From Alphaproteobacteria bacterium (lineage in GTDB: Bacteria > Pseudomonadota > Alphaproteobacteria > Ferrovibrionales > Ferrovibrionaceae): a DNA stretch of 64,000 nucleotides. Where the stretch lies: positions 1 through 64,000 of the forward strand of contig JAFKFH010000019.1 in assembly GCA_017307375.1 (NCBI GenBank), written 5' to 3'. Below, piece by piece: positions 13,013 to 20,420 of this stretch. The notes below the pieces were generated by a model, which saw only the letters and a program-made list of their open reading frames with translations, did not search any database and was not told where the DNA came from. Positions within the stretch are counted from its first letter, which is position 1. Every line of letters starts with the position of its first letter. The position numbers and the translations under genes were made by a program.

Positions 13013-14044
13013 ATGGATTTCCGCAGCGACAACGTCGCCGGCGCCCACCCTGCCATGATCGAGGCGCTGATCCGCGCCAACCAGGGCACCGATACCTCCT
13101 ATGGCGGCGACGCGATCACCGGGCGCGTCGAACGACGCCTGCGGGACATCTTCGAAACCGACTGCATCGTCTTCCCGGTGGCGACCGGCACGGCGGCCAA
13201 TGCCCTGGCGCTCTCGACCCTGGTCAGCCCGTGGGGCGCGGTCTATTGCCATCGCGACGCCCATGTCGAGGTCGACGAGGCCGGCGCGCCGGAATTCTAT
13301 ACCGCGGGCGCCAAGATGGTACTGGTCGACGGCGCCCATGCCAAGGTGACGGCCGCCGCGCTGTCCCAGGCGCTGGGCCAGGCCGGCTTCGGCGTCGAGC
13401 ATCATGTCCAGCCCCAGGCGGTCTCGATCAGCCAGGCGTCCGAGCGCGGCGCGGTCTACCGCCCCGGCGAGGTCGCGGCGCTGGCCGAGATCGCCCGCGG
13501 CCACGGCATGCGCCTGCACATGGACGGCGCGCGCTTCGGCAACGCGCTGGTCTCGGCCAATGCCACGGCGGCCGAGCTGACCTGGAAGGCCGGGGTCGAC
13601 GTGCTCTCCTTCGGGGCGACCAAGAACGGCGCGCTCGGCGCCGAGGCGGTGATCTTCTTCGACCGCGGCCTGGCCGAGAATTTCCAGTGGCGGCGCAAGC
13701 GGGCCGGCCACCTGTTCTCCAAGATGCGCTTCCTCTCGGCCCAGCTCGACGCCTATCTCGACAACGACCTGTGGCTCGCCAATGCCCGCCACGCCAACGA
13801 CGCCGCCCGGCGCCTGGCCGAAGGCCTGCGCGCGCTGCCCGGCGTGCGGCTGGTCGACCCGGTCGAGGCCAACGAGATCTTCGTCGAACTGCCGGAAGCG
13901 ATGATCCAGGGCCTGGAGGCCGCCGGGGGCCGGTTCCATCGCTGGGGCCCGCCGGGCACCCGGCTGGTGCGCCTGGTCTGCTCGTTCGCCACCTCGGCGG
14001 CCGAGGTGGAAAACTTCGTCGGTCACGCAAAAGCCCTTGCGTGA
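13013..14044 (+). CDS. ltaE: Low-specificity L-threonine aldolase
   Basis: This PLP enzyme splits L-threonine or L-allo-threonine into glycine and acetaldehyde. The 343-residue protein starts MDFRSDNVAGAHPAMIEAL, the typical aldolase opening, and has CIVFPVATGTAANALAL, LHMDGARFGNALV (cofactor Asp) and SFGATKNGALGAEA with the PLP lysine near residue 203. AAAGGGA lies 7-12 bases before the ATG. The preceding MPN gene ends 14 bases upstream, so the two may be co-transcribed. The longer open frame upstream overlaps that gene and is rejected. Confidence 0.92.
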   Translation: MDFRSDNVAGAHPAMIEALIRANQGTDTSYGGDAITGRVERRLRDIFETDCIVFPVATGTAANALALSTLVSPWGAVYCHRDAHVEVDEAGAPEFYTAGAKMVLVDGAHAKVTAAALSQALGQAGFGVEHHVQPQAVSISQASERGAVYRPGEVAALAEIARGHGMRLHMDGARFGNALVSANATAAELTWKAGVDVLSFGATKNGALGAEAVIFFDRGLAENFQWRRKRAGHLFSKMRFLSAQLDAYLDNDLWLANARHANDAARRLAEGLRALPGVRLVDPVEANEIFVELPEAMIQGLEAAGGRFHRWGPPGTRLVRLVCSFATSAAEVENFVGHAKALA

Positions 14045-14085
14045 CCCCCGGCGATCGACTAAAAGGCGGGCCTCACGGCCCTCTG

Positions 14086-14161
14086 GTCCCCATCGTCTAG
14101 AGGCCTAGGACGGCGCCCTCTCACGGCGCAAACAGGGGTTCGAATCCCCTTGGGGACGCCA
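14086..14161 (+). tRNA. tRNA-Glu (anticodon CTC)
   Basis: The acceptor stem pairs 14086-14092 with 14151-14157, followed by discriminator G and an encoded CCA (14159-14161). The anticodon stem GCGCC/GGCGC encloses CTCTCAC, giving anticodon CTC at 14120-14122. The T-loop GGTTCGAATCC is canonical. A composition change begins right after the CCA, as expected for an island that used this tRNA as its attachment site. Confidence 0.97.
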
Positions 14162-14687
14162 CAGGCCGCCTAAAATCCCGAAATCGCTGGTTCAATGTCG
14201 TGTCGCGCTGGGTTAAACGTGTCGCGCTGGGTTAAATCCGCTGCGTGACTATAAACGGGCGTGACTGCCGCAATGGCGCAGAGGGGCGACGGTAGACTGG
14301 AAAAGGTAAAACCGGCTTATATCCAAGTGTAGATGGCTATAAGAGCTATTATCACCAGTAACTCTTGATGCCGGAATCCGGCCGGAGCACGCTGCGAACA
14401 TTCTACACCTGCCTCTTCTTCGCGCCATTTCCTGCCGCGCACCGGCAAAGGCAGGGCAGGGTAGCCGCAGTTGTCGCCTCAAGAGTTGCCGGCCTGCAGG
14501 CCGGAAATGACGGTGCTCGACCGCGGCTCCAGGCGTCGCGACACCGGCCGAGGATTCGCGAGATTGCCGCCGCAACCGGGCCGGTGAATATCCCGGACCG
14601 GGTTGCCACTACCCTCAACATCGTGATTCCATCAACCCAAGACTCCAGCGCTGACCGGAGGTAACTTCGGGCTCAGGTCATCACCGC
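14162..14687. other. Gene-free junction between tRNA-Glu and island
   Basis: No convincing gene is seen in these 526 bases. Two frames of about 100 codons exist on opposite strands, but neither has a recognisable domain or ribosome-binding site. The stretch contains a tandem repeat at 14199-14236 and a perfect 16-bp palindrome (CCGGCCTGCAGGCCGG, 14489-14504). It may hold the remains of an attachment region. Confidence 0.5.
14199..14236. repeat. Perfect tandem 19-bp repeat next to tRNA-Glu
   Basis: Two abutting identical copies (14199-14217 and 14218-14236) of CGTGTCGCGCTGGGTTAAA lie 38 bases after the tRNA. No further copy is noticed in the window. It could be an integrase arm-type site, an insertion scar or a transposon end. 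Confidence 0.8.
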
Positions 14688-15896
14688 TTACGCTTCCTCC
14701 GGAGGATAGCGCTGCCTGAGCACATTCTCCATTTCGTACAGCACTGCCGCTATTCCAGAAAAATCATAGCCACTGCCATGTAATTTGGCTTTCATGAACT
14801 TACTCGTATACTGCTCTTTTTGAACTAACTCTCCCTGGTATCGTTCGCTGGACTTATCAAAGCTTGTCCATCTCACCTTGGGCTTCTCCCTCATCTTGTA
14901 GTTCAAATCGAGATAGCACTCGATAGCTGCGGCTCGACCATTGATATCTTCTATGGTTTCGCCTTGAGGACCAAGGGTCGGCATATAAGACAGGCGGCGC
15001 AAATCTGGCAACCGCATGACCATCATATTGTTTGGAAGCGGCAGCTTCTTTGTCTGAAGATACTTGTTGCACCCTTCCGTGTCGTTGTCATATATCACCA
15101 ACACCCAGACTGAGATGCCAATTTTTACTAAGCCCTGACAGAATTTATAAAGGTTTCCCGTTCCAGAAAAAGGATAACCTTCGTTCATATCTATAAAACG
15201 ATAAAAATCACTGGTATTTGGTCGCAACAACTTTAATGCCCTTTGAATGATGTGTGAGTCAGAACTCCCTTCGGTTACAACCAGAATCTGGTTCGATAGA
15301 GATAAGGGCGACGTAACTGATTCTTCAGTGTCAATTCCTTGCTCTACCACGTCCATGAAGCGCCACTCGACCATCAGATCGAGGTTCTTTGGATTGAGAG
15401 CAAGCAGGCTCAGGATCCATTCCGCAGAGAAATTCTCAGCTATCTCTCTCGTGTCTCGAACGTCCCGCGCGAAATCACCGACAAAAACTCTGGGTGCTAT
15501 TTCATATTGGAAAAACTCGCCAAAATTATAGTCAATTCTATATTTCGCTGTCCCGAAATTAACGTCAGCGTTTATGATCGCAGCACTGATTTTTTCGAAG
15601 TCCAAAGGGTCTTCGTAGTCGCTAGATGTCGGACGTTCGCTCAAAACTTCGTACACGTGCTTTGCACGGGCCGGGGTATACCCCAGCATTTCCAATCGAG
15701 GAACCATATCTCTCAGTTTTCGGGAATAACCTACTTTTTGTTCACTCCGAATATCTTCTTCACAACCATCCCAGTAGTGATAGGTGATCAGCTGACGATC
15801 TTGTGGCTGAAACAAGTCGGAATAGGTCGAGGTATTCCATAGCTTATTCCAGGCAAGCTCAAGGTTGCCGATCCCGAGATAAATAGTGCACTCCAT
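14688..15896 (-). CDS. HEPN/Toprim-associated protein, possible defence factor
   Basis: This 402-residue protein has an N-terminal part beginning MECTIYLGIGNLELAWNK that resembles the domain often found before HEPN or Toprim modules. A Toprim-like fold follows at about residues 204-275: ILVVTEGSSDSHII carries the conserved Glu (209) and Asp (213), and LVIYDNDTEG gives the second acidic pair (D270, D272). Toprim domains bind magnesium and catalyse phosphoryl transfer on nucleic acids (topoisomerases, OLD nucleases). The DNA is clearly lower in GC than the flanking core, which indicates transfer. It is a single gene. A phage-defence role is inferred from domain and context only. Confidence 0.65.
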   Translation of the reverse strand: MECTIYLGIGNLELAWNKLWNTSTYSDLFQPQDRQLITYHYWDGCEEDIRSEQKVGYSRKLRDMVPRLEMLGYTPARAKHVYEVLSERPTSSDYEDPLDFEKISAAIINADVNFGTAKYRIDYNFGEFFQYEIAPRVFVGDFARDVRDTREIAENFSAEWILSLLALNPKNLDLMVEWRFMDVVEQGIDTEESVTSPLSLSNQILVVTEGSSDSHIIQRALKLLRPNTSDFYRFIDMNEGYPFSGTGNLYKFCQGLVKIGISVWVLVIYDNDTEGCNKYLQTKKLPLPNNMMVMRLPDLRRLSYMPTLGPQGETIEDINGRAAAIECYLDLNYKMREKPKVRWTSFDKSSERYQGELVQKEQYTSKFMKAKLHGSGYDFSGIAAVLYEMENVLRQRYPPEEA

Positions 15897-15950
15897 ATCT
15901 TGCCTCTAAATCCTGTCTGCAGCCGAATATAGCAGCGCAGGCCAGCTATC

Positions 15951-16406
15951 TCAGGGCTTCGTCGAAAATCCTGCCAGCGCCCACAACAGCGCCCAGCCGG
16001 CCACCAGCACGGCCAAGGGAATGCCGATCGCTATCCCGACCTTCTCGGCCAGGAGAATCCACAAGCTTCTTCGCTCATTGACCGGTAGGCCGCGTTTTCG
16101 ATATAGGCTGTCGATCAGCTTCTGATTAGGCATGTTGCCGTATTCGGGATAGACGGCCCGGAACTTCGGAAGGCCGTACCAGCAGAAGCCATCGGCCTGC
16201 CGCTCGAAGTCGTGAGTTTCTTGTCCACGAGCCTCGGCGCAATCGGTCGGCACCATGGTCACGTCTCCGTTCGCATCGAGGAATGCGATGAGGCGTTCGA
16301 TCTCAAACGAGTTTCGAATCTCGCTATAGGACGTGAACGAGACGGCAGCGACGAACAGGACCGTGGCCAATATCCAGAACCTGAACAGTCCCCGCCTGGC
16401 GTTCAT
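15951..16406 (-). CDS. Small protein with two membrane helices
   Basis: The 151-residue product has an N-terminal helix (about 8-27, FRFWILATVLFVAAVSF), an extracytoplasmic middle with two cysteines, the segment FRAVYPEYGNMPNQKLIDSLYRKRG, and a C-terminal helix (about 122-145, VGIAIGIPLAVLVAGWALLWAL). The YPEY...D..L motif with two flanking helices recurs in proteobacterial hypothetical membrane proteins, whose function is not known to me. GC content here is close to the core level, unlike the preceding gene, so the island is mosaic. Confidence 0.6.
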   Translation of the reverse strand: MNARRGLFRFWILATVLFVAAVSFTSYSEIRNSFEIERLIAFLDANGDVTMVPTDCAEARGQETHDFERQADGFCWYGLPKFRAVYPEYGNMPNQKLIDSLYRKRGLPVNERRSLWILLAEKVGIAIGIPLAVLVAGWALLWALAGFSTKP

Positions 16407-16424
16407 GGCCGAGCCCTCCCGTGT

Positions 16425-16839
16425 TCAGCTCCCCGCGTTCTTCGGCCTACCCCGACCCCTCGTCCCCAGCCCAATCACCTTGGCCATCTCGGCGCGCATG
16501 GCAGCATAGTTCGGCGCCACCATCGGATAGTCGGCAGGCAGGCCCCACTTCCCGGTAGTCGTCCGGGGTCATGCCGTAGGTGGTGCGCAGGTAGAGCTTC
16601 AGCATCTTCAGCTTCCGCCTGTCTTCCAGGCAGGCGATGTATTCCGGGGTGACCGACTTCTTGACCGGGGCGGCGGGCTCGGCCTTTTCCTGCGGCGCCG
16701 GCAGGGCGGCTTGGCCCAGTCCCGAGAGGGCGGCGGCCGCCGATTTGAGCAGGGCAGGGATTTCGTTTGGGGCGATCTGGTGGCTGCCGACGTAGCTGGT
16801 GACGATCGTGGCGGTGAAGGTCGTTGTGTGTTTAATCAC
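16425..16839 (-). pseudogene. MucR/Ros-family transcriptional regulator, frameshifted
   Basis: The first 109 or so codons match MucR proteins: an N-terminal IVTSYVGSHQIAPNEIPALL helix, then VKKSVTPEYIACLEDRRKLKMLKLYLRTTYGMTPDDYRE. The continuous frame then degenerates (to a stop at 16447). Shifting one frame near 16548-16553 restores the family ending, WGLPADYPMVAPNYAAMRAEMAKVIGLG, down to a TGA at 16425. The zinc-finger region is also altered (LKLYLRT, where Tyr stands at the first usual His). A broken gene is the simplest reading; a sequencing error is the alternative. Confidence 0.7.
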
Positions 16840-16872
16840 AGCATCGCCCTCGAAGAATTTATCTGATCTGTT

Positions 16873-17388
16873 TTAGATACCGACAAGTACAATTTCGCTA
16901 TCTCCAGTTGATATGGATTCTATTTCGTGGACGATCTTCAATTTGATCGCTTCATCTGGCTGAACAAAGGTATCTGTTTTCTGCCCGAAATACCTATTAA
17001 TATGTTCATCATTCCAATCTAGCTCGATACGAAATGGAATTGAAATTACTTCAGTTGTTGGCGCGATTGAACCCTTAAGCGGACCATCTGAGAAGGAGGC
17101 AGCGTGCAGACTGAATACCCCTGCCTTAGACATAGTTCGTCGTTCACCAGCAAGGAACATTGTTGCCGCAATCGATCCAACTATACCGAAGCAGTGGGTG
17201 TTTATCCGTATAGGTAAGATCTTAAGGAAATTGTATGCTCCAAGACCTGCGTTTACATCACCACCTTCACTGCAAAGCAACAATGTGATCTCGCGCGCAC
17301 CATTGCTCATGCAGCTAACACACAAGACCTCAAGATTCCTGATGCCTTGTGGTGTGACTGCTCCGTGATAAACAATAAATTTGCGCAT
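16873..17388 (-). CDS. ClpP-like serine protease
   Basis: The 171-residue protein has the ClpP/crotonase-type core: EITLLLCSEGGDVNAGLGAYNFLK, then HCFGIVGSIAATMFLAGE with the expected nucleophilic Ser (about 72), and FSLHAASF with the catalytic His (95). It lacks the exact sequence of housekeeping ClpP and resembles stand-alone ClpP-like proteins of mobile DNA. MRKFIVYHG at 17388 gives the best family start. An in-frame ATG at 17436 and a frame reaching 17568 also exist but would run into the divergent gene. The DNA is AT-rich. No ATPase partner is adjacent; the substrate is unknown. Confidence 0.7.
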   Translation of the reverse strand: MRKFIVYHGAVTPQGIRNLEVLCVSCMSNGAREITLLLCSEGGDVNAGLGAYNFLKILPIRINTHCFGIVGSIAATMFLAGERRTMSKAGVFSLHAASFSDGPLKGSIAPTTEVISIPFRIELDWNDEHINRYFGQKTDTFVQPDEAIKLKIVHEIESISTGDSEIVLVGI

Positions 17389-17489
17389 TACCACTTTCTG
17401 AAAGTTGCGTATTTGCAGAATAGTGAATGTAAACATAACACTCAAGCCATTCTGATTGAATGAACAATTCTCTGTCGGAAGGAGGCAAA

Positions 17490-17834
17490 ATGCGGATCTA
17501 TCTCGACCTCGACGGTGCGTTGGCCGATTTTGAGGCTGGGGCCACAAATCTGCTGGGCGTGCCGCCACGCCAGTTTGAGCAGGAGAATGGGGCCGGCGTG
17601 TTCTGGCGCCGCTTGGCGGAGGCTGACGGCTTCTATCGCCAGCTGCCTTTGCTACCCGATGCTCACCCCCTGTTCGATGCTGTGCAGCACCTGCAGCCGA
17701 CTATTCTGACTGGCCTGCCCAAGGCCGCCGATCGATGGGTGGCGGCTGGTGGGCGGTTCGTCCGTCATCAGGATGCCGGCTCGACGATCAAGGCGCTGGC
17801 CGACATGGGCGTCCTGGGCAGCGCGGCAGCCTGA
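17490..17834 (+). pseudogene. HAD-superfamily phosphatase-like protein with internal deletion
   Basis: The protein starts MRIYLDLDGALADFEAG, the HAD motif I (DxD) as found in phage- and plasmid-borne 5'(3')-nucleotidase-like proteins, preceded by GGAGG at 17479-17483. It proceeds normally to PTILTGLPKA (motif II region) and then jumps straight to ADRWVAAGGRFVRH, which normally stands near the C-terminus after motif IV. About 45-50 residues containing the lysine and acidic motifs III/IV are therefore missing in frame. It is probably inactive. A start at 17460 is possible but adds residues outside the family. Confidence 0.55.
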
Positions 17835-18185
17835 TGTCTGGCCCTCCGGGCAGGGGCCGGCAGCTGGGCTGCCGGCCGGGCTGCCGACCGCTCAGCTGGA
17901 GGTGGGGCGGTCGACTAAGCACACAGACGCTGCACGTGGGTGGGTAACCGGCAAGCCGGGGCCGGCTTGGCTCAGCGTCGGCGCGCCGGCGTGGCCATCC
18001 CGCCGGGGTGCGGGCATTAGGATGCAGGAGAGCTGGCGATAGGTCGTTTCGGAAGTTGCCCACTCCACGTGCCGCGGGCGACGTTGCTAGATCGTGGGAC
18101 GATCTGCCAAACTACGCAACCGAAAGGCTGATTTAGAATAGCTGCACACGAATGGTCCAGCGCGACATGTTTTTGGGGAGGTGGC
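17835..18185. other. Non-coding stretch before the kinase gene
   Basis: No supported gene is seen. The left half is GC-rich with several short inverted repeats around GCCGGCAGC/GCTGCCGGC (17850-17876). The right half is AT-richer and ends with GGGGAGG five bases before the kinase ATG. The composition step inside this gap suggests a join between two imported segments. Confidence 0.45.
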
Positions 18186-19646
18186 ATGAACGTGACAACT
18201 CATTCCGGAAAAGTGTTGTCTCTCGGGCAGGAAATCGGTCGCGGTGGCTTCGGAGTGGTCTATTTAGCGACAGACGCGAATGGCGCAGTATTTGCGGTCA
18301 AGTTAATCGGCCCTGTTGCAACCGAGGATGACAGGAAAGCATTCCATCGTGAGCTCGAAAATTTTCGTGTTATAGATAACGAAAACGTATTGAAAATATT
18401 AGATTTTGGTCATTGTGATATGAATGGGAATATATATCTATTTACAGTTGCTGAATTCTGCGCCCAAGGTGATTTTAGGAAGAGAATTGCCTCTTACGAA
18501 GCGGGAAATCTCGATATTGCTCTTATTCTTAATGATTTTGATGAGATACTGGGGGGGCTGGCGGCGATGCACTCCGTAATGGTGCATCGAGATCTTAAGC
18601 CGGAGAATATCCTTATAAAAGATAATCGACTAAAGATTGCTGATCTTGGTCTCTCTAAGCTTGTAAATCAGGCAACCGCCAGCCTGACATTTAAGGGTAG
18701 TGGATCTCCCCGGTATATGGCTCCGGAAGTCTGGGATTATCAGCGGGCATCTCCCGCAACAGATCTCTATGCTATCGGAATTATGTTGTTTGAGGTCTTT
18801 ACTGGGGGACCCCCGTTTAAAGCCGCCGATATTCTAAAGTTAAGAGATGAACATCGCTTCATCCCAGCGCCGCGGGTGAGGAAGGTGAATCCTCTCGTTC
18901 CTGAGTGGATTGATGGAGTGGTAAAGCGTCTGCTCGATAAAGAGCCAACAAGACGGTACTCGTCAGCAGAAGAACTTAGGTCTGCCTTAAAAAAGGAAGC
19001 TGAAAAATTGCCGTCGAATATAAATGCTATATTGAATAATGTTAGAGAGCACGTGGATCTTGCTGAACAGAGGAACTTAGAAGCACAAAAAAAGAAAGAT
19101 GAAGTCAAGAATGATTTGGCGAGAATTTCGTACAAAGAGTTGGAGGTTGTCGATATGTTTTCTGATATTGTCTCCAGGTTAAATGATAATTTAGCAGAAT
19201 CCCGTGTGGATTTCAAGAGAGGGCCTAATGGATGTCGCTGCGTGTTCGGGCGACGGCAGTTACTGGTGTCTTTTTTCCGTCAGGGTGAGCTATTCAAAGA
19301 TTCTCGACATCAGGGGCTAGTGGAGCGCCTTCGACAGAGACACTTAGTTCACGGCGGCATAATTGAAATACAGGAGAATGGAGAGGACAGAGAGGGTTGG
19401 AATATCGCTCTCGTTCGTGGGCCAGAAGAGATTTATGGGAGGTGGCTTCTAATCGAAACTCGGGCATCGGGCCTCTCTAGTATTTCGACACGGTACGAGC
19501 CCGTTGCCACTGAAGCGGAGTTATTTGCGAAAAATTTAGCTCATCACTGGGGGCGTGCGATGCATGTCTGGAACTTGAAGGAGAAAGATTTGGACGAAGA
19601 TGATGCGGTAGCCATCTTCGAGAAATTTATAGGGAAGCCCGTTTAG
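18186..19646 (+). CDS. Hanks-type serine/threonine kinase with unrecognised C-terminal domain
   Basis: The 486-residue protein carries a complete kinase domain (about 10-275): GRGGFG glycine loop at 18-23, ATP lysine K39, HRDLKPEN loop (catalytic D136), DLG in place of DFG at 153-155, and MAPE at 178-181. A charged, probably coiled-coil linker covers about 276-330 (EAQKKKDEVKNDLARI). The rest (about 330-486) is an unfamiliar domain (RCVFGRRQLLVSFF, WGRAMHVWNL). There is no membrane helix, so it is cytosolic. The DNA is AT-rich relative to the core. A strong GGGGAGG precedes the ATG. Stand-alone kinases of this kind occur in defence islands, but its target is unknown. Confidence 0.85.
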   Translation: MNVTTHSGKVLSLGQEIGRGGFGVVYLATDANGAVFAVKLIGPVATEDDRKAFHRELENFRVIDNENVLKILDFGHCDMNGNIYLFTVAEFCAQGDFRKRIASYEAGNLDIALILNDFDEILGGLAAMHSVMVHRDLKPENILIKDNRLKIADLGLSKLVNQATASLTFKGSGSPRYMAPEVWDYQRASPATDLYAIGIMLFEVFTGGPPFKAADILKLRDEHRFIPAPRVRKVNPLVPEWIDGVVKRLLDKEPTRRYSSAEELRSALKKEAEKLPSNINAILNNVREHVDLAEQRNLEAQKKKDEVKNDLARISYKELEVVDMFSDIVSRLNDNLAESRVDFKRGPNGCRCVFGRRQLLVSFFRQGELFKDSRHQGLVERLRQRHLVHGGIIEIQENGEDREGWNIALVRGPEEIYGRWLLIETRASGLSSISTRYEPVATEAELFAKNLAHHWGRAMHVWNLKEKDLDEDDAVAIFEKFIGKPV

Positions 19647-19649
19647 GAG

Positions 19650-19746
19650 CTCGCAATTTCCGGCAGACCTCATCCACCGATTTCGTGGGCTCCACCTGGC
19701 GCAGTGCAAAGCCAATCTGCTACGCCGTGAACGTCGACTTCCTCAT
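19650..19746 (-). pseudogene. IS3-family transposase OrfA remnant
   Basis: Read on the minus strand from 19746, the sequence gives MRKSTFTA, a stop, then QIGFALRQVEPTKSVDEV and CRKL. This is the N-terminus of IS3-family OrfA (usual form MRKSRFTEAQIVFALRQVE), broken by an in-frame stop and cut off at the end of the kinase gene. Confidence 0.7.
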
Positions 19747-19938
19747 CGGCACGATCTCCTTTCTTGCCATCTATCGTGCCGGAAGCCACACTTTTGCCTG
19801 GAGGAGATCTGGGTCAGGATCATAAGTCCATGATGAAGACTGGCGGGCTCGACCCTACCGGCGCAGCGCCGCCACCTGGGATCAATTAGTGATAGCGGAT
19901 GTTATCGCCAGTTGACCTGAGCCAGAAGGCGCCCCCGG

Positions 19939-20124
19939 TCAGTGCTGGACTTCCCTGAGTTTGATGGGATCACGCTGTTGGCGGTATTGGCAACCGGGTC
20001 CGGGGCATGCCCCGGGACCCGGTTGCGGCGGTAATTCGGCGACGTACTCGGCCGGGGGCGCGCCGTCTAAGCTCGAATGCGGCCGGACGCGGTCGTGGTC
20101 GTGGTCGTCGCGCCCGGCGGCCAT
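19939..20124 (-). pseudogene. IS3-family transposase OrfB C-terminal remnant
   Basis: The 61-codon frame contains RVRPHSSLDGAPPAEYVAELPPQPG, matching the end of IS3-family OrfB (RPHSSLGGLTPAEYA). The rest is changed by an inserted hairpin at 19990-20026. With the OrfA scrap at 19650-19746 it shows that an IS3 element once stood at the right edge of the island. Confidence 0.65.
19990..20026. repeat. Long GC-rich hairpin inside the transposase remnant
   Basis: A nearly perfect inverted repeat of 17-18 bp per arm (CAACCGGGTCCGGGGCA against TGCCCCGGGACCCGGTTG, one extra C in the right arm) meets at a central GCATGC. It has no T-run, so it is not a simple terminator. It resembles a REP-like palindromic insertion. 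Confidence 0.7.
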
Positions 20125-20152
20125 CCGCCCTATTGCCCCCGCTCAACCTCGC

Positions 20153-20395
20153 TCAGGCCGCATTGCCTTCGGCCAGGCGGCTCCCCCGCACCGCCGGCAC
20201 CACCTGGTCGCCCCAGGCGCCGCCGCCGTTGTGGTGGCGGGTCACGCGCACCAGTTCGACCGAGATGCCTTCGCTGACGGCGCGCTGCACCGCCTCGTTC
20301 ATCCGGTGGACCGCGTCGGCGACGCGCTGGATCGCCCGGGTCTGGACGTCGGTTTCGGGTCGCTCGACCCGCTGGAATTCCGTGCTGGCGTTCAT
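20153..20395 (-). CDS. Small unrecognised protein downstream of isocitrate lyase
   Basis: An 80-residue frame starts at an ATG with GGGAG seven bases upstream. It encodes a helical, charged N-terminal part (RAIQRVADAVHRMNEAVQRAV) followed by EGISVELVRVTRHHNGGGAWGDQVVPAV. I do not recognise a family. It follows aceA by 62 bases, which include a hairpin, and uses codons like those of the core genes, so it is likely real and linked to aceA expression. Its stop lies about 28 bases beyond the transposase scrap, which marks the island edge. Confidence 0.55.
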   Translation of the reverse strand: MNASTEFQRVERPETDVQTRAIQRVADAVHRMNEAVQRAVSEGISVELVRVTRHHNGGGAWGDQVVPAVRGSRLAEGNAA

Positions 20396-20420
20396 CGCAG
20401 ATCTCCCTTCGCTGTGGTTG

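Follow-up and report, generated by a model that had tools for sequence, protein, structure and literature searches.

The window, as we call the whole 64,000-nucleotide stretch of DNA analysed here, carries on its minus strand (14688..15896) an intact open reading frame of 402 amino acids with an ATG start, which was identified as a HEPN/Toprim-associated domain protein from the ORF, the Pfam family PF18871 and its full-length relatives. Since such relatives are found across many phyla, this ORF is more than a chance reading frame. A ribosome-binding-like stretch, AGAGG, could be read from the sequence 7-11 nt upstream of the start (15903..15907, minus strand). The N-terminal domain, HEPN/Toprim-NTD1 (NTD1 below), takes up about residues 1-198 (15303..15896, minus strand) according to PF18871 and the predicted model, and is proposed to be sensory or regulatory. 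The Toprim domain with a C-terminal extension follows at about residues 199-402 (14691..15302, minus strand), as indicated by the model, VIA-align and hhalign. Promoter-like sites near the gene numbered 4 against 1.7 expected, and terminator-like sites 2 against 2.4 expected. The upstream ORF on the same strand, 54 bp away (15951-16406), matched no family in Pfam, PADLOC or PHROGs.

Outside 14001-20000 the GC content of the window was 63-76% per kb, and at 15001-16000 it was 46%, so the description of the gene as AT-rich in the first-pass annotation is true relative to its surroundings. The third-position GC was 0.51 in the Toprim gene versus 0.90 in aceA and 0.84 in an aldolase gene, both names being our interpretation of the ORFs and not the result of a database search. 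With both values low against the flanks the gene looks foreign, and it is of foreign origin, acquired by horizontal transfer.

The gene belongs to an island between tRNA-Glu (CTC), at 14086..14161 on the plus strand beside the insertion, and aceA. The island is bracketed by two IS-remnant arms, the left at 14531..14680 (plus strand) being a 77% identical inverted copy of the right at 19913..20068 (minus strand), and the genome has a third copy with 85% identity on its contig C35. The right arm overlaps a small ORF (19939-20124), which we take to be IS3-transposase-like from a motif. No duplicated 3' end of tRNA-Glu was found in 13900-20400, and an attachment site at this tRNA is therefore not demonstrated. 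Just past the tRNA-Glu gene, two perfect 19-nt tandem copies of CGTGTCGCGCTGGGTTAAA occupy 14199-14236, and a 16-nt near-inverse is seen at 18157-18172. In 6.5-9.5 kb stretches of three relatives, the aldolase gene was kept, with tRNA-Glu beside it in one of the three, and neither the island genes nor aceA were matched.

Other genes of the island were also inspected. An AT-rich Ser/Thr kinase gene at 18186-19646 (plus strand) encodes about 200 residues in addition to the kinase domain and was matched by 34 PADLOC models, with mad6 (5.4e-59) and PD-T4-6 (5.4e-52) as the best ones; it is possibly a second defence gene of the island. The ORF at 16873-17568 (minus strand) encodes a ClpP-like serine protease (Pfam CLP_protease, 1.5e-9) which matched the head maturation protease of PHROGs at 1.3e-11, and no Clp ATPase gene was found among its scanned neighbours. 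A Ros/MucR regulator lies at 16447-16839 (minus strand); its C-terminal part runs on in another frame, and with the frame thus broken this gene is probably a pseudogene.

For the comparison of residues, 111 loci of the family were reduced to the 108 with at least 360 aa and then, by removal of 8 duplicates, to 100, which were aligned with the window protein (101 rows). Residues 1-193 matched Pfam HEPN_Toprim_N (PF18871) with an E-value of 4.2e-25 and 89.4 bits, the curated cut-off being 25. The first-pass annotation had described a single-gene Toprim protein whose N-terminal domain is HEPN-associated, and this protein thus has a real ORF and a recognised domain. This domain, of about 240 aa, was named HEPN/Toprim-NTD1 by Anantharaman et al. 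in 2013, and fusions to two HEPN families, a TOPRIM domain and an Mrr-like nuclease have been described (PMC3710099). Since NTD1 is also fused to the two HEPN families and the Mrr-like nuclease, it may be an interchangeable control domain. Conserved positions in NTD1, as counted in the 101 rows, included G2 (85), D33 (98), R67 (100), G72 (100), F100 (97) and W178 (101).

The N-terminal half was rejected as a HEPN nuclease, because the RX4-6H motif is not conserved. The sole instance in the window protein, R34-H40, was common to 2 of the 101 rows, and some RX4-6H string was present in the N-terminal half of 67 rows at no common place. The HEPN label therefore holds for a HEPN-associated domain and fails for a HEPN nuclease itself. 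When NTD1 was modelled alone, the mean pLDDT was 85.2 and the pTM 0.84, and the predicted structure showed four strands followed by helices. A Foldseek search of this model against solved structures gave zero matches at E <= 0.001, and among 285 chains re-aligned with VIA-align four reached Z 2.3-2.5 and none was higher. This unmatched predicted fold does not show that the fold is new. In a genome of the window's phylum (G322, loci L008 and L010), two tandem PF18871 genes without a visible Toprim were observed, followed by a third small ORF.

The Toprim half is reported by no Pfam model, and it was the predicted structure and the motifs that revealed it. The structure predicted from a 76-row alignment had a mean pLDDT of 88.8, a pTM of 0.89 and a Toprim-like fold. 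A comparison set of RT-Toprim proteins was obtained with the retron I-C model PDLC02968; 3 of the 8 proteins inspected had an RT and a Toprim C-terminus, and these were cut 12 residues before EGxTD. As judged by hhalign, the Toprim half matched the three RT-Toprim proteins with a probability of 95.9% and an E-value of 2.8e-9 for this single comparison, over 180 columns with 21% identity. The motifs were paired as EGSSD with EGKTD, DND with DSD or DND, AIE with xIE, and K360 with the lysine of all three proteins. The controls gave 0.1% with the reversed profile, at most 0.1% with 20 column-shuffled profiles and 0.0% with the N-terminal half.

Structure comparison with VIA-align placed three retron Eco2 entries at the top (Z 9.6-9.8, rmsd 3.4-3.6, 166-170 residues, 17-18% identity), followed by small Toprim proteins at Z 7.7 and 7.9 and OLD C-terminal domains at 7.0 and 7.2. 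Small Toprim proteins together with RNase M5 spanned Z 6.6-7.9. Unrelated chains also scored high, with an Argonaute chain at Z 7.8 and receiver domains at 7.4. Foldseek with the whole model gave zero matches at E <= 0.001. Among PDB sequences, the single-sequence search found nothing credible and the 76-row profile search found no match. Taking hhalign, the motifs and the structure comparison together, it is well supported by sequence profiles and the predicted model that the Toprim half is a distant homologue of the retron type I-C/Eco2 Toprim.

The active-site residues were highly conserved. The four acidic residues named in the first-pass annotation are at the positions given there and do not vary in any of the 101 rows: E209 (15270..15272), the Toprim glutamate, and D270 (15087..15089) and D272 (15081..15083) of the DND motif are proposed ligands of metal A, and D213 (15258..15260) of EGSSD of metal B (all on the minus strand, as are the two codons below). 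E326 in the AIECYLD motif (14919..14921) was likewise identical in all 101 rows; it aligns with the glutamate of the RT-Toprim xIE and is proposed as a metal B ligand. K360 (14817..14819), the proposed catalytic lysine, aligns with the lysine of the three RT-Toprim proteins and was found in 100 of 101 rows, the remaining row being gapped. W178, T208, G210, G275, L296, P297 and W343 were also invariant, and the Bacteroidota search gave three divergent members (L206, L208, L209) that retain the active-site pattern.

In Eco2, E374/D460/D462 and D378/S513/E515 were assigned to two metals and a lysine was called catalytic (PMC12405507), and the class 2 OLD residues are E400/D455/D457, E404/T506/E508 and K562 (PMC6755086). 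By analogy, E209/D270/D272 and D213/E326 would hold two metals in the window protein. At residue 324, the counterpart of S513/T506, 80 of the 101 rows have A and 21 have S. K360 may be the lysine numbered K562 in both Eco2 and Bp OLD, but the spacing between the distal glutamate and the lysine differs: it is 34 residues in the window protein and 31 in each of the three RT-Toprim proteins, and the published spacings are 47 in Eco2 (PMC12405507) and 54 in Bp OLD (PMC6755086).

The distribution of the family was then examined in several collections. Matches were found in 49 of 72,556 plasmid records, 35 of which covered at least 80% of the query, and among the 40 plasmid relatives listed, 32 of the 36 annotated ones carried the product name 'HEPN/Toprim-associated domain-containing protein'. 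In the phage collection (50,697 records) there was one match, which was partial. Species genomes searched with the single sequence gave zero relatives; when alignment A1 was used, 182 of 329 pattern-bearing stretches were relatives, and the best 80 of these 182 were used as genome loci. In viral contigs, 7 of 69 stretches were relatives. When 20 genomes were queried again, exactly one match was found in each. The window protein shared 32-43% identity with the 75 other rows of alignment A2.

A tree was built from 73 proteins, namely the window protein and 72 of the 80 genome loci. It covered Pseudomonadota, Bacillota, Bacteroidota, Planctomycetota and Acidobacteriota, with single members elsewhere, including one contig labelled Lokiarchaeota. 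The window protein sits on a long branch of 1.16 in a group (98/82) with rows from Luteimonas, Sphingomonas, Erythrobacter and SAR324, and it is a divergent member of the NTD1-TOPRIM family. It has V at residue 263, where 98 of 101 rows have N, and E at residue 2, where 85 of 101 have G, and together with the long branch these departures from the family suggest that the window copy may be drifting. That it is a decaying, non-functional copy we regard as rather improbable: the long branch, the departures at residues 2, 19 and 263, the frame-broken MucR gene next to it and the surrounding IS remnants would fit decay, but the ORF is full-length, the candidate catalytic residues as well as W178, W343 and R67 are kept, and the ribosome-binding-like stretch is in place. 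Elsewhere in the family, dN was 0.20 with dS saturated between the plasmid and e14-like E. coli copies, and dN was 0.010 with dS 0.045 between the e14-like and Klebsiella copies, values which are only suggestive of constraint.

The family is rare and patchy. In the window's phylum, PF18871 was detected in 9 of 398 genomes including its own, with 8 over the cut-off; in the phylum of the Pedobacter locus in 6 of 395, seed included, with 4 over the cut-off; and in the phylum of the Mobilisporobacter locus in 2 of 398, seed included. None of 14 control genomes had PF18871, and the gene was found in none of 17 genomes (72-100% complete) of the window's taxonomic family. A DNA search from one E. coli copy found at least 13 of 5,426 E. 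coli genomes, 5 of them over at least 80%. Such a distribution largely excludes a housekeeping role, and the counter-case given in the first-pass annotation, membership of a known housekeeping family, does not hold. A housekeeping or regulatory Toprim protein of the RNase M5-like, topoisomerase-like or primase-like kind could draw on the VIA-align scores of RNase M5 and the small Toprim proteins, but with these counts in three phyla, in E. coli, in the same family and in the controls we consider it highly improbable.

The relatives sit as cargo on plasmids, prophages and integrative elements and in defence islands. On Aeromonas plasmids, the gene lies reversed within the structural genes of a Mu-like prophage. 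In an e14-like prophage it is located between the integrase and icd, and a second such prophage holds only a remnant. Other mobile contexts were an element with two integrases, a position 6 kb from a TnsD gene and one beside an integrase. On the Xanthomonas plasmid at locus L011, the family gene and a second gene annotated 'toprim domain-containing protein' (14947-16122) are separated by about 6 kb. We hand-picked 15 distinct contexts among annotated records and sorted their genes by hand: 7 of them had named defence or toxin-antitoxin genes at a distance of up to 8-9 kb, and the other eight had none by our count, a Fic gene in one of these eight being left out. They comprised CBASS with AbiV; TIR with HEPN; SIR2 plus ATPase and AAA plus HNH; and, in the other contexts, AbiE; a restriction endonuclease with RelBE; AbiEii; and Qat.

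We also compared the neighbour proteins with PADLOC. With near-duplicate loci passed over there were 172 immediate neighbours of 100-900 aa, and 122 of these were scanned (28 mostly short ones and 22 others were left out). A total of 148 PADLOC models matched at 1e-10, none of them matching more than 2 proteins, compared with 3 models for 113 control ORFs, which were taken from the relatives' loci and from the part of the window that lies outside the island. Given the redundancy of the models and the small number of genomes behind the controls, this enrichment gives a direction and not a rate, and mobile cargo of other kinds would fit it as well. Among the 122 neighbours, 5 matched the Pfam phage integrase family.

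For the partner search, 656 proteins of at least 80 aa, up to four ORFs per side, were collected from the 111 loci with a simple longest-ORF script and clustered. No widely conserved partner gene was found among these 656 neighbours, and in this respect the gene is the orphan that the first-pass annotation had called it. Twelve clusters reached at least 3 loci (one of 8, three of 4 and eight of 3). The largest, in 8 of 111 loci, was integrase-like, and its L018 member is annotated as a site-specific integrase; several clusters were near-copies of one locus, and one was ATPase-like (L070, L081, L100). The preceding gene was on the same strand as the Toprim gene in 75 of 105 loci and the following gene in 55 of 106. 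A same-strand ORF of at least 80 aa ended within 30 bp upstream in 16 of 105 loci and started within 30 bp downstream in 16 of 106, suggesting that some copies may be in operons. In E. coli (L023/L024, 7690-8619), a divergent hypothetical gene was observed 381 bp upstream of the Toprim gene. Its two copies cluster together, the elements being the e14-like prophage and the two-integrase element, which suggests that the gene pair moved together.

These surroundings bear on whether the protein could be a selfish addiction or plasmid-exclusion toxin instead of a phage defence. The family is frequent on plasmids and integrative elements, and some records have Fic, AbiE or RelBE neighbours, as would be expected of a toxin. 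An antitoxin-like neighbour does not recur among the 656 proteins of the 111 loci, and chromosomal and prophage-cargo copies exist, and we consider a toxin of this kind quite improbable.

The protein was also compared with known systems. PADLOC-DB 2.0.0 gave HEC-01B as the best model with an E-value of only 0.0017 (16.1 bits), in the Toprim region only, and RT-Toprim_I-C at 0.026; NCBIfam and PHROGs gave zero matches. The suggestion that the protein falls outside named systems is thus borne out in that PADLOC has no good model for it, but not for the family as such, which was named in 2013 and has a Pfam model and an NCBI product name. It shares its N-terminal domain and architecture with the NTD1-TOPRIM proteins of Anantharaman et al. 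(PMC3710099; PF18871), from which the window copy stands apart by its long branch and its chromosome-like surroundings, with a tRNA gene and IS remnants alongside. No experiment on the HEPN/Toprim-NTD1-TOPRIM family was found in the open-licence PubMed Central papers searched, and word searches of the main text of DefensePredictor (PMC13092281) gave no mention of the family. IbfA (PMC12111858) was set aside as a tested relative, as it is described as an ATPase-Toprim protein.

Retron Eco2 (Ec67), the RT-Toprim protein of type I-C, has a homologous Toprim with matching motifs and is the best structural match. In Eco2, control is exerted by a reverse transcriptase with msDNA (PMC12405507), whereas the window protein has NTD1 instead, and no RT family was found in it by a Pfam scan up to E 1. 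OLD proteins and GajA of Gabija have in common with the window protein the Toprim pattern of E, D, DxD, a distal E and Lys. Unlike them, it has no ABC ATPase domain and no helicase partner, and a Pfam scan up to E 1 found no ATPase family in it. PARIS AriB, likened here by its published description, is a Toprim polypeptide without its own ATPase, as is the window protein. AriB is a two-metal tRNase (PMC12409363) that depends on a separate AriA ATPase, whereas the NTD1-TOPRIM loci have no widely conserved ATPase partner, and no AriA-type ATPase was found among the island ORFs scanned (five by Pfam and four by PADLOC).

All these results suggested that the protein is a one-protein, horizontally acquired anti-phage effector, in which NTD1 would restrain a two-metal Toprim nuclease that probably cuts RNA, and we consider this explanation fairly likely. 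The C-terminal Toprim would work as a two-metal-ion nuclease, as in OLD and retron Eco2, with one metal held by E209, D270 and D272, the other by D213 and E326, and K360 helping catalysis. NTD1 may silence the nuclease in healthy cells and sense an infection cue; the cue would release the nuclease, RNA, perhaps tRNA, would be cut, translation would halt and phage growth would be aborted. We infer two-metal catalysis, an RNA substrate, a sensor or brake role of the N-terminal domain, abortive infection and defence. The most likely substrate would be RNA (mRNA or tRNA), a guess made because the nearest relative, Eco2, is an RNase. The Eco2 Toprim is reported to be an RNase that is toxic when freed, and active-site mutants lose defence (PMC12405507).

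The same one-protein design might instead have a Toprim that cuts DNA, of the phage or the chromosome, as in OLD and Gabija. DNA-cutting Toprim defence nucleases include class 2 OLD (PMC6755086), which has the same active-site pattern, and Gabija (PMC12405507), and the Toprim nuclease of retron Eco8 also cuts DNA; the two OLD C-terminal structures at Z 7.0-7.2 are in line with this. The nearest structures and the sole supported profile match, however, are those of the retron I-C/Eco2 Toprim, an RNase, and the ATPase-Toprim profile match was weak at 17% with the one sequence tried (L164, OLD-like by reading). We therefore consider a DNA-cutting Toprim possible but rather unlikely.

An RNA-cutting effector under the control of NTD1 would be of interest as a Toprim defence candidate without an ATPase, helicase or RT partner and with a sensor-like domain that has no recognised fold. 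The other Toprim defence nucleases considered here are described as being governed by a further domain or component, which is an ABC ATPase in OLD, Gabija and PARIS, an SMC complex in Wadjet and an RT with its DNA in Eco2. We put forward tentatively, at somewhat less than an even chance, that this is the first Toprim defence system without an ATPase, helicase, RT or other partner, and that NTD1 is a general infection-sensing module. If so, in a protein of about 400 residues NTD1 would sense infection directly and unleash an RNA-cutting Toprim, and the same module would be found on HEPN and Mrr nucleases. The idea of such a leashed nuclease can be tested directly, given the six conserved residues and the homology to Eco2. 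A stand-alone Toprim with a small N-terminal domain would show the simplest leash and offer a compact study system, and NTD1, common to other nucleases, would become a defined sensor.
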